Below are positions 42,577-45,487 of a stretch of 45,487 nt of DNA, piece after piece. The number at the start of each line of letters is the position of its first letter. Positions within the stretch are counted from its first letter, which is position 1. Source of the DNA: an uncultured Bacteroidales bacterium. Its GTDB lineage: Bacteria; Bacteroidota; Bacteroidia; Bacteroidales; UBA932. The notes under the pieces are model-generated. The model made no database searches. It saw nothing but the letters and a program-made list of their open reading frames with translations, and was not told the DNA's origin. The position numbers were made by a program, and so were the translations under genes. Location of the stretch: the NCBI GenBank assembly GCA_900319975.1, contig ONQP01000020.1, forward strand, positions 1 to 45,487. Direction: 5' to 3'.

Positions 42577-43428
42577 TTACGGGATGATTTTGTCGATATT
42601 GAGCACCAGGATGCCTTCGGCGCCGATGGCCTTGAGTTGCTGGATCTTCTCCCAGAGGTCCGCTTCGTCCACCACGGAGTGCATCGAACACCAGCCCTCG
42701 GCGGCGAGCGGCATCACGGTCGGGCTGCGCATCGCCGGGAGGATGCGCGTCGCCTCTTCGACGGAAGCCTGCGGGAGATTCATCAGGATATACTTCTTGT
42801 GGCGGCTGACCTTGGCGGACTCGAAGCGGAACAGCATCTCGTCGAGCACCTTCTGCTCCTCGTCGCTGAGCTTGCCGGAGGAGATGAGCACGGCCTCGGA
42901 CCAGAAGATCTTCTCCACCTCGCGGAGGCCGTTGCTGACGAGCGTGCCGCCGGAGGAGACGATGTCGAAGATGGCGTCGGCGATGTCGGCGGCCGGGGCG
43001 ATCTCCACGGAGCCGGTGATCACTTCGATCTCGGCCTCGATGCCCTGCTCCTGCAGCCATTTGCGCAGGATGTTGGGGTAGGAGGTGGCGATGCGCTTGC
43101 CGTTGAACCACTGCGGACCGTCGTAGTCGACCGTCTTGGGCACGGCGAGCGAAATGCGGCAGGCGCCGAAGCCGAGCTTCTCCACGACCTGCACTTCGAA
43201 GCCGCGCTCCGCGACTTCGTTGAGTCCCACGATGCCGAGGGACGCGGTGCCGTTGGAGACGACCTGCGGGATGTCGTCGTCGCGCATGTAGAGGAGCTCC
43301 AGGGGGAAATTGGCGGCCTGGGCGAGGAATTTGCGGCGGGAGTCATCGACGTCGATGCCGATCTCGCGCAGCAGGGCGGTGCTCTCTTCGTTGAGGCGGC
43401 CCTTGGATTGGATGGCTAATCTGAGCAT
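42577..43428 (-). CDS. hisG: ATP phosphoribosyltransferase, long form
   Basis: 283 residues, starting MLRLAIQSKGRLNEESTALL. The catalytic type II periplasmic-binding-like domain covers about 1-205, including 'NGTASLGIVGLNEV' and the PRPP-binding 'ADIADAIFDIVSSGGTL'. A C-terminal PII-like domain (about 210-283: 'PTVMPLAAEGWCSMHSVVDEADLWEKI') is the site of histidine feedback in the long form, so no HisZ is needed. First structural gene of the operon; the attenuator ends 25 bases upstream of its ATG. Confidence 0.97.
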   Translation of the reverse strand: MLRLAIQSKGRLNEESTALLREIGIDVDDSRRKFLAQAANFPLELLYMRDDDIPQVVSNGTASLGIVGLNEVAERGFEVQVVEKLGFGACRISLAVPKTVDYDGPQWFNGKRIATSYPNILRKWLQEQGIEAEIEVITGSVEIAPAADIADAIFDIVSSGGTLVSNGLREVEKIFWSEAVLISSGKLSDEEQKVLDEMLFRFESAKVSRHKKYILMNLPQASVEEATRILPAMRSPTVMPLAAEGWCSMHSVVDEADLWEKIQQLKAIGAEGILVLNIDKIIP

Positions 43429-43526: not shown

Positions 43527-43568
43527 TCAGACTCGGTGGTGGTGGTGATGGGTGCGCTTCATATTCAT
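43527..43568 (-). CDS. hisL: his operon leader peptide
   Basis: A 13-codon open frame: MNMKRTHHHHHRV and a TGA stop. A second ATG two codons in would give MKRTHHHHHRV. Five consecutive His codons (CAT then four CAC) are what a histidine attenuation leader needs: when charged tRNA-His is short, the ribosome stalls there and the downstream terminator fails to form. It is followed within about 40 bases by a GC-rich stem, then the terminator at 43454-43486, then hisG. A promoter -7 box lies 7 bases before the first ATG, so the leader is probably translated from a leaderless transcript. The gene name follows the enterobacterial convention. Confidence 0.88.
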   Translation of the reverse strand: MNMKRTHHHHHRV

Positions 43569-43621: not shown

Positions 43622-45487
43622 TTAGATTTTTGGCTCGTCGAAATCGAAGGAGATTTCCAGCTCCTCGCCGTCGCGCAGGACCGTGAGGGTGACGGACCGC
43701 AGGCCCTTGGCCCAGGTCCGGAAGGCCAGGTAGCTGTAGGTCTTGACGTCGCGGCCGTTGACCGCGATGATGCGGTCGCCGCGCCGCAGGCCGGCCTTCT
43801 GGGCGTTGGAGCCCTCATAGAGGAAGTTGACCGGCCAGTAGCCGAGTGTCTGCGAACGATAAGTTGCGCCGAAACCCCGGGTGGGGGCCGTGAAAGGCTT
43901 GGTATAGTAGGCGTTGGGCCGCATGTAGAGCAGGCCGTGGGATGCGTCGATGATCAAGTCGAAGCGGCCCCAGATATCATTGCCCATGATGCCGATCCAT
44001 TTGCTGTCTGCCTGCACACCTTCATTGTTGAGGCTGTAATCCATGACGACGTCGTCGAACGAGAACGGACCGAGGTCCAGACCGAGCGCCCGGAATTCGT
44101 GGCTGCTCGATCCGCCGCCGATGCCGCCGACGGTCGAGGCGGAGGCCAGGAAGGGCTGGACGGCTGCCAGACCGTATTTTTCGCTGGTGGTGCGCGTCAG
44201 GGAAAGCGAATTGGGGCTGCCCAGGTCCATCAGGACCTTTCCTTCGACGGTGATCCCGTCGCGGATCCGCGCGCGGACCGGCAGCAGGATCCGCCTGTTC
44301 TTATATTCGACCGGAATGGCCGTGTAGCCTTCCACTTCCTCCGCCTCCACCTTGTCCCAGAAGCCGATCTTTTTGTTCCGGAAGTCGATGGCGATGGCCG
44401 CATCTCCGACCTCGCTCAAGCCGACCAGGCCGTCGGCATAGTCGCCCAGGATTGACTTGAGATCGACGATGGGGGAGACGGCGGTCTGGTATTCCTTGCC
44501 GCCCATCGAATAGGTGAATTCATGGTGGATGGCCGTTACCGTCGCTATGCCGTCTCCGGCGCCACCCATCCTGGCGAAGTATGTGTGTTCGTACTTGAGG
44601 CCGTTTTGGGCGACGAAGGTGCTGTCCGGGATCGAGTAGGGTGAGCCCGTATCCAGGACGAAGTGCGCTTCGTTCCCTTTGACCTCCAAATCCACGTAGA
44701 CGTAGCCGTAGAACTCCATGTCGGCCCAAACCTTCCGGCTGAGCGTGACGACGCCGGCGGACAGGGGCTCGACGGTGAAGGTGACGGTATTGCCCTCGGG
44801 CTGCAGGGCCTTGTGCAGGCGCTGGACGGCCTGCTTGTGGTCCATGTCGTTGGCAGCGTCGAGCGAGCCCGGTGCGATGTAGTCGTAGTCGGCCGTGGCG
44901 ACGGAATTCCAGTCCGGCGCGAGCGTAAGGCTGTAGGGCTTGTCGGTCGGGTTGACCACCTTGACCTTGACGATACCGCTGTTGTCGGCGCGGGAGGCGC
45001 TGACGCTCAGCTCTTTGGCGTCGCCGGAAACCGCGAGGCGGTTGGGCGCGAAGTGGTCGTACCAAAGATCCGTGACCTGGTAGTTGGGGGCGACGAAGAG
45101 GTCCTTGTAGTCGAAGTTGATGAAGGCGTTGTCCCAGTCGGGCGCGTCGGTGCGCCGGATGAAGAGCGCGGCGGCGCCCATCGCCACCACGTCCAGCTGC
45201 TCGCAGACGTTGAGGAAGCCGCCGGCGAACAGGCCCGTGCGCCAGTCGGTGCTGTTGAGGTTCCACTCGGAGATGAACAGCTTGATGTTGGGGTTCGGGC
45301 ACTTCGCGATCATGTCGGCATAGCGCTGATACTGCTGCGCCAGGCGCACCGGGCCGGTGGCGTAGCCGCCCTGCTGCTCGTAGTGGTGCAGGCTCATATA
45401 GTCGAAGAAGCGGCCGGAGCGGTTCAGGAAGGCCTCGTCTTCGGGGAAGCCGCCGCAGACGATGATCTTGATGGAAGGATCCACCGC
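43622..45487 (-). CDS. GH51 arabinofuranosidase C-terminal half fused to aspartyl protease and PDZ domain (5' end outside window)
   Basis: At least 621 residues; the frame runs past the right edge, so the N-terminus is missing. Residues about 1-240 (counted from the edge) are the C-terminal half of a GH51 alpha-L-arabinofuranosidase: 'DYMSLHHYEQQGG', 'KLFISEWNLNSTDWR' with the nucleophile Glu, 'VCEQLDVVAMGAAALFIR', then its beta-sandwich. From about 255 a retropepsin-like protease begins: 'AHFVLDTGSPYSIPDS' (about 277) and a second lobe 'KVLMDLGSPNSLSLT' (about 400) where DTG has become DLG. The last 80 residues are a PDZ domain ('GSNAQKAGLRRGDRIIAVNGRDV'). Junctions are seamless with no frameshift. 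Upstream of the his operon on the same strand. Confidence 0.83.
   Translation of the reverse strand, partial: AVDPSIKIIVCGGFPEDEAFLNRSGRFFDYMSLHHYEQQGGYATGPVRLAQQYQRYADMIAKCPNPNIKLFISEWNLNSTDWRTGLFAGGFLNVCEQLDVVAMGAAALFIRRTDAPDWDNAFINFDYKDLFVAPNYQVTDLWYDHFAPNRLAVSGDAKELSVSASRADNSGIVKVKVVNPTDKPYSLTLAPDWNSVATADYDYIAPGSLDAANDMDHKQAVQRLHKALQPEGNTVTFTVEPLSAGVVTLSRKVWADMEFYGYVYVDLEVKGNEAHFVLDTGSPYSIPDSTFVAQNGLKYEHTYFARMGGAGDGIATVTAIHHEFTYSMGGKEYQTAVSPIVDLKSILGDYADGLVGLSEVGDAAIAIDFRNKKIGFWDKVEAEEVEGYTAIPVEYKNRRILLPVRARIRDGITVEGKVLMDLGSPNSLSLTRTTSEKYGLAAVQPFLASASTVGGIGGGSSSHEFRALGLDLGPFSFDDVVMDYSLNNEGVQADSKWIGIMGNDIWGRFDLIIDASHGLLYMRPNAYYTKPFTAPTRGFGATYRSQTLGYWPVNFLYEGSNAQKAGLRRGDRIIAVNGRDVKTYSYLAFRTWAKGLRSVTLTVLRDGEELEISFDFDEPKI

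Follow-up and report, generated by a model that had tools for sequence, protein, structure and literature searches.

The question raised by this locus is whether a glycosidase and a protease are truly encoded there as one protein. The window, that is, the whole stretch of DNA analyzed (45,487 nucleotides; contig C73 of the uncultured Bacteroidales genome G000, an assembly of 132 contigs with 88.42% completeness), ends inside a gene. In this gene, the initial annotation had read the end of a GH51 arabinofuranosidase continuing in one frame into a two-lobed aspartyl protease and a PDZ domain. The frame (43622..45487, minus strand) was found to be a single open reading frame (ORF) of 621 codons with zero internal stops, open at the contig end, where the 5′ part of GH51 is cut off. 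Its parts, compared with those of a second genome of the genus (G121), are as follows:

44732..45487, minus strand: C-terminal part of a GH51 alpha-L-arabinofuranosidase, residues 1–252, assigned through GH51 homologues and the full-length G121 orthologue
45260..45271, minus strand: SEWN with the GH51 catalytic nucleophile Glu (FISEWN, residues 71–76), aligned via G121
44729..44734, minus strand: fusion joint, codons 252–253 (K252|V253), at the position of the stop codon in GH51 homologues
44303..44731, minus strand: retropepsin-like lobe 1, residues 253–395 (Asp_protease_2; predicted local distance difference test of the model 94.9; limits set by eye)
44642..44653, minus strand: DTGS, residues 279–282, with the predicted lobe 1 catalytic Asp D279, invariant in 34 rows
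43883..44302, minus strand: retropepsin-like lobe 2, residues 396–535, recognized by fold only, as Pfam covers lobe 1 only; limits set by eye
44216..44227, minus strand: DLGS, residues 421–424, with the predicted lobe 2 catalytic Asp D421, invariant in 34 rows
43649..43831, minus strand: PDZ domain, about residues 553–613 (PDZ_6)
43622..43624, minus strand: stop codon of the fusion, from the ORF call

The analysis of the ORF with Pfam detected Asp_protease_2 at residues 265–357 (E 1.5e-7) and PDZ_6 at residues 557–605 (E 1.5e-9; 37.8 bits against a curated cut-off of 27). The PDZ profile scored 28.5 bits against a cut-off of 23.2, which places the domain in that family. Residues 1–252 alone matched no GH51 model of Pfam at E ≤ 1 and, by phmmer, nothing in the PDB at 0.1; they were 61–81% identical to nine Bacteroidales proteins (L004–L012). 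The nearest named records were metagenome genomes, some of them from ruminants (red deer, yak omasum). A search of related genomes for the same architecture, as the initial annotation had suggested, returned G121, with the same in-frame joint on an 828,874-bp contig. There the gene was complete, including the upstream GH51 part, and encoded 1216 amino acids with a signal peptide (assigned by eye), ASD1_dom (E 6.1e-14), Asp_protease_2, PDZ and both GH51 Glu residues. This orthologue matched solved alpha-L-arabinofuranosidases by phmmer (E 3.6e-42 with 3s2c), and its NE and EWN motifs both aligned with theirs; we take the Glu of NE to be the GH51 acid/base and that of EWN the nucleophile, the only one of the two contained in the window. 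Residues 1–252 were identified as the end of a GH51 enzyme because they match GH51 homologues and because the G121 orthologue matches the solved enzymes. The orthologue also carries an N-terminal extension with a 3keto-disac_hyd-like match, seen as well in the unfused L102 and in L012. A search of G000 for the missing 5′ part yielded nothing but two paralogues at 39%. The reading of GH51, protease and PDZ in one frame was thus borne out by the open frame, Pfam, the homologues and G121.

The joint was located by comparison with 12 GH51 loci, in which the alignment stops at window residue 251 or 252. A stop codon (TAA or TAG) follows the aligned end immediately in nine of them (L004–L011 and L025) and one or two codons later in L027 and L026. 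The unfused locus L005 (the same as L102) has the order GH3 (divergent, identified by the sequence it has in common with the GH3 of contig C46 of G000), GH51, his leader and hisG, with no protease. The sequence 3′ of the window protease stop is homologous to that 3′ of the L005 GH51 stop, his leader included. Since L005 is homologous at both flanks, the protease sits between the GH51 coding end and its 3′ flank, at the GH51 stop codon. The flank contains:

43527..43568, minus strand: his leader peptide MNMKRTHHHHHRV; a his leader is likewise present 3′ of the unfused GH51 in L005, which makes it the right-hand boundary of the insertion
42577..43428, minus strand: hisG, first gene of the his operon, identified by sequence recognition, with a homologous start in G121 and L005

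Hairpins resembling a his attenuator were predicted 3′ of the leader. As a separate observation, the GH51 of the twelfth locus, L012 (5183–9500, an Alistipes metagenome genome), runs at the same place into a GH97 (N domain, catalytic domain and start of the C domain in the stretch scanned), and the GH51 C-terminus is therefore a repeated fusion point.

An assembly chimera or a frameshift artefact could be suspected, as the window is a contig end in a 132-contig genome and a related protease copy lies at another contig end. However, the joint is identical in G121 and both flanks (GH51 and his leader) are colinear with L005, so that this explanation is very unlikely, close to negligible. The GH51-protease fusion is genuine. 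Two separate genes in every close relative, which the initial annotation had named as evidence to the contrary, were not the pattern encountered, given the fusion in G121.

The distribution of the fusion was analyzed in a draw of 400 genomes of the genus. Of these, 13 matched the protease at E ≤ 1e-8; the close form was present in two (G000 and G121), fused in both, versus GH51 at E ≤ 1e-20 in 40 of 400 genomes drawn the same way. The architecture is therefore as non-standard as first supposed. By protease positions and frame lengths, no GH51-protease fusion was found in the draw beyond these two genomes, and another draw of 389 genomes, most of them the same, added none. For the remaining GH51 hits of the genus, the ends were judged by frame length alone, save those of the 12 loci compared at the joint. 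Two long frames, in G132 (2147 amino acids) and G297 (1008 amino acids), were rejected as GH51 fusions; both terminate at the usual GH51 stop codon, and their length seems to come from extension of the frame upstream. Both fusion-bearing genomes also encode a standalone protease. That of G000, on C46, has a signal peptide start (assigned by eye), is broken off at the contig end and is 67% identical to the window protease over 172 residues; that of G121, downstream of the fusion, shares 89.5% identity with the C46 copy across 200 codons.

The protease module was then considered. In the 34 rows of the alignment, made up of 31 of 38 loci plus three rows from the window and G121, neither D279 nor D421 varied, nor did the Gly of either D-x-G motif. 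The loci left out (L029, L034, L055, L060, L065, L068 and L119) were fragments, contig ends or sequences with a long N-terminal extension, L119 being omitted by choice; they too retain the Asp wherever the motifs are covered. Two lobes thus each give one Asp in a D-x-G motif, by the alignment and by the structure model, which predicted with confidence one bilobed chain. The initial annotation had regarded DLG as a change of lobe 2 that might leave a half-active or dimer-dependent protease. This was not upheld: all nine closest relatives from other genera share DLG, both Asp are invariant, and the model is a single chain containing both lobes. The fused module lacks a signal peptide of its own.

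Regarding the history of the locus, the order in G121 is fusion, his leader, a 5′ fragment of hisG directly followed by a 5′ fragment of GH3, standalone protease, his leader and hisG. The two fragments meet in a scar (L099:11293-11686) at a shared, near-identical 12-base sequence, GAGAGC[A/G]CCGCC, and this arrangement is a tandem duplication. The right side of the scar has 114/130 ungapped matches with the GH3 flank of C46. The left side has 79/150 with the hisG side of the window versus 45/150 with the GH3 side; the low count is due to small indels, and gapped alignment shows the homology. Fusion and standalone copies have similar upstream regions and signal-peptide starts. In G000 the fusion adjoins an intact hisG and the standalone copy adjoins GH3, so the order of the units differs from that of G121. 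The locus carries GH3 and GH43 genes with xylosidase-type C-terminal domains.

On balance, we lean toward a genuine gene fusion in two species of one Bacteroidales genus that yields an exported bifunctional polypeptide with putative arabinofuranosidase and protease activities. Several points weigh against this reading. The fusion is present in two genomes only, and the standalone copy in both could perform the job of the fused protease. In retropepsin- and pepsin-like proteases, Thr or Ser follows the Asp in both lobes (DT/SG), and lobe 2 departs from this pattern with DLG; the module is consequently classed as an aspartic protease by fold and likeness only, its peptidase family membership being unproven. 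The PDB sequence matches listed for the protease part (60 of 164 and 448) were PDZ domains only, and the full-length model has a predicted template modelling score of 0.55, with uncertain domain orientation. Moreover, the ratio of nonsynonymous to synonymous substitution rates (dN/dS; Nei-Gojobori, own script, codon bootstrap, G000 against G121 copies) was 0.578 (0.36–0.93) for the fused protease, above both the GH51 part (0.195; 0.11–0.33) and the standalone pair (0.276; 0.15–0.49; 200 codons), and in the tree its stem of 0.23 (plus ends of 0.06–0.10) is longer than the standalone branch of 0.15. Four his genes gave 0.016–0.159.

These rates, the longer stem, the standalone copies, the tandem duplication in G121 and the rarity (2/400) would all fit a tolerated passenger, in which an accidental fusion at a duplicated locus persists because selection keeps GH51 while the protease drifts and the standalone copy does the work. 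This is the main rival, a real possibility though not a probable one. Against it, neither a stop nor a gap interrupts the 369 codons of the fused protease, whereas a simple estimate that assumes change at all sites at the synonymous rate and equal base changes predicts about 5.3 stops under neutrality. The upper bootstrap limit of its dN/dS is 0.93, and both Asp are retained. Family-invariant sites are preserved to much the same degree in the fused and standalone proteases. Of 211 sites without variation across seven g28 rows, 79 are changed in the window, 78 in the G121 fusion and 74 in the standalone copy; of the 125 that are also invariant in two g35 rows, the changes number 36, 31 and 31, respectively. 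The lack of stops, the invariant sites and dN/dS together indicate that the fused protease is retained, but under weaker constraint. Synonymous divergence between the two fusions was 0.278 in the GH51 part, 0.138 in the protease part and 0.055–0.144 in the his genes; recombination or gene conversion at the fusion locus is possible.

When 334 genomes of the order were searched with a profile, 92 of them gave matches at E ≤ 1e-15. Frames over 600 amino acids among the matches listed were the window, G875 and G939. The G875 protein (L136:3681-5768) joins in frame a PF00756 esterase, an aspartic protease with two lobes and a PDZ-like end, the latter with 21.8 bits for Pfam PDZ, just below the cut-off of 23.2. 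That of G939 (L135:2052-5651) combines an amidohydrolase, a PD40 propeller and an aspartic protease in one 1200-amino-acid frame, with DNG as the first lobe motif and no PDZ found. The protease is therefore also joined, rarely, to other hydrolases. A 574-amino-acid frame in G838 was rejected as a fusion, its ATG-started ORF being of 447 amino acids. The broader proposal that exported Bacteroidales hydrolases repeatedly acquire the two-lobed protease and PDZ as a module at their C-terminus, forming here a true glycosidase-protease for arabinosylated protein or protein-bound hemicellulose, we consider unlikely.

Under the favored reading of an exported bifunctional fusion, the mature two-lobed protease and PDZ coding sequence would stand where an exported GH51 gene, upstream of the his operon, had its stop codon, and a single exported, probably periplasmic polypeptide would be made. 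The surface position put forward by the initial annotation was not borne out, the signal peptide of G121 being the feature observed. The GH51 part may remove arabinofuranosyl side chains from (arabino)xylan-type oligosaccharides, which fits the GH3 and GH43 genes found alongside. The two lobes would share a single peptide-cleaving active site built on D279 and D421, and the PDZ domain may present or gate substrates. The joint would bring co-export and co-expression of two enzymes, not a proven shared substrate.

Two other roles had been offered by the initial annotation. A protease that cuts the joint or its partner, thereby releasing or maturing the glycosidase, is suggested by the adjacent placement only; relatives encode GH51 without a protease, and the full model places the first protease strand (824–829) two residues after the last GH51 strand (813–821) with no evident linker, although domain placement is uncertain there. 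Self-processing of this kind is highly improbable. The degradation of arabinosylated plant glycoproteins (extensins, arabinogalactan proteins) by both activities would suit an arabinofuranosidase and a protease in one chain, and the titles of some related records point to ruminants (red deer, yak). The GH3 and GH43 genes with their xylosidase-type domains argue against it, and no glycosidase was recognized by eye in 12 neighborhoods of standalone homologues, whose neighbors were not profile-searched; this role is improbable.

Compared with known systems, the fusion shares with the solved GH51 arabinofuranosidases 3s2c, 3ug3 and 6zps a homologous barrel with aligned NE and EWN motifs, and adds the N-terminal extension and the C-terminal protease and PDZ. 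Standalone Asp_protease_2 plus PDZ proteins of Bacteroidota (L107–L115; PDZ checked by Pfam in L107) have the same two lobes, with DTG and DLG, at 38–48% identity, but they are single proteins of about 390 amino acids, whereas the fused module follows GH51. A putative endopeptidase of B. fragilis (9iy9) differs, with 16% identity. Pseudomonas RloA/RimB (PMC12239564) and Rickettsia APRc (PMC4140852) are likewise bacterial retropepsin-type aspartic proteases; unlike them, the fusion has both lobes in a single chain attached to a glycosidase, and the main text of PMC12239564 does not contain the term PDZ. The G875 protein is similar in having a hydrolase followed in frame by a two-lobed protease, but its partner is an esterase and it belongs to another family of the order. 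Multicatalytic carbohydrate-active enzymes of Bacteroidota (PMC8417218; PMC7110780) also join such an enzyme to a second catalytic domain; by title, these are carbohydrate-active pairs (CE15-GH8; acetyl-feruloyl esterases) with no protease. Searches of the open-access literature, judged by title or abstract start, returned no description of a GH51-protease fusion. The fusion is a rare joining of known domains.

This locus is a clear instance of a protease domain acquired by a carbohydrate-active enzyme at the stop codon, and the unfused layout (L005), the fusion and the standalone protease can all be compared. Should both halves prove active, a single exported enzyme would link the breakdown of polysaccharide with that of protein, and a bilobed aspartic protease of bacterial origin would become available for assay.
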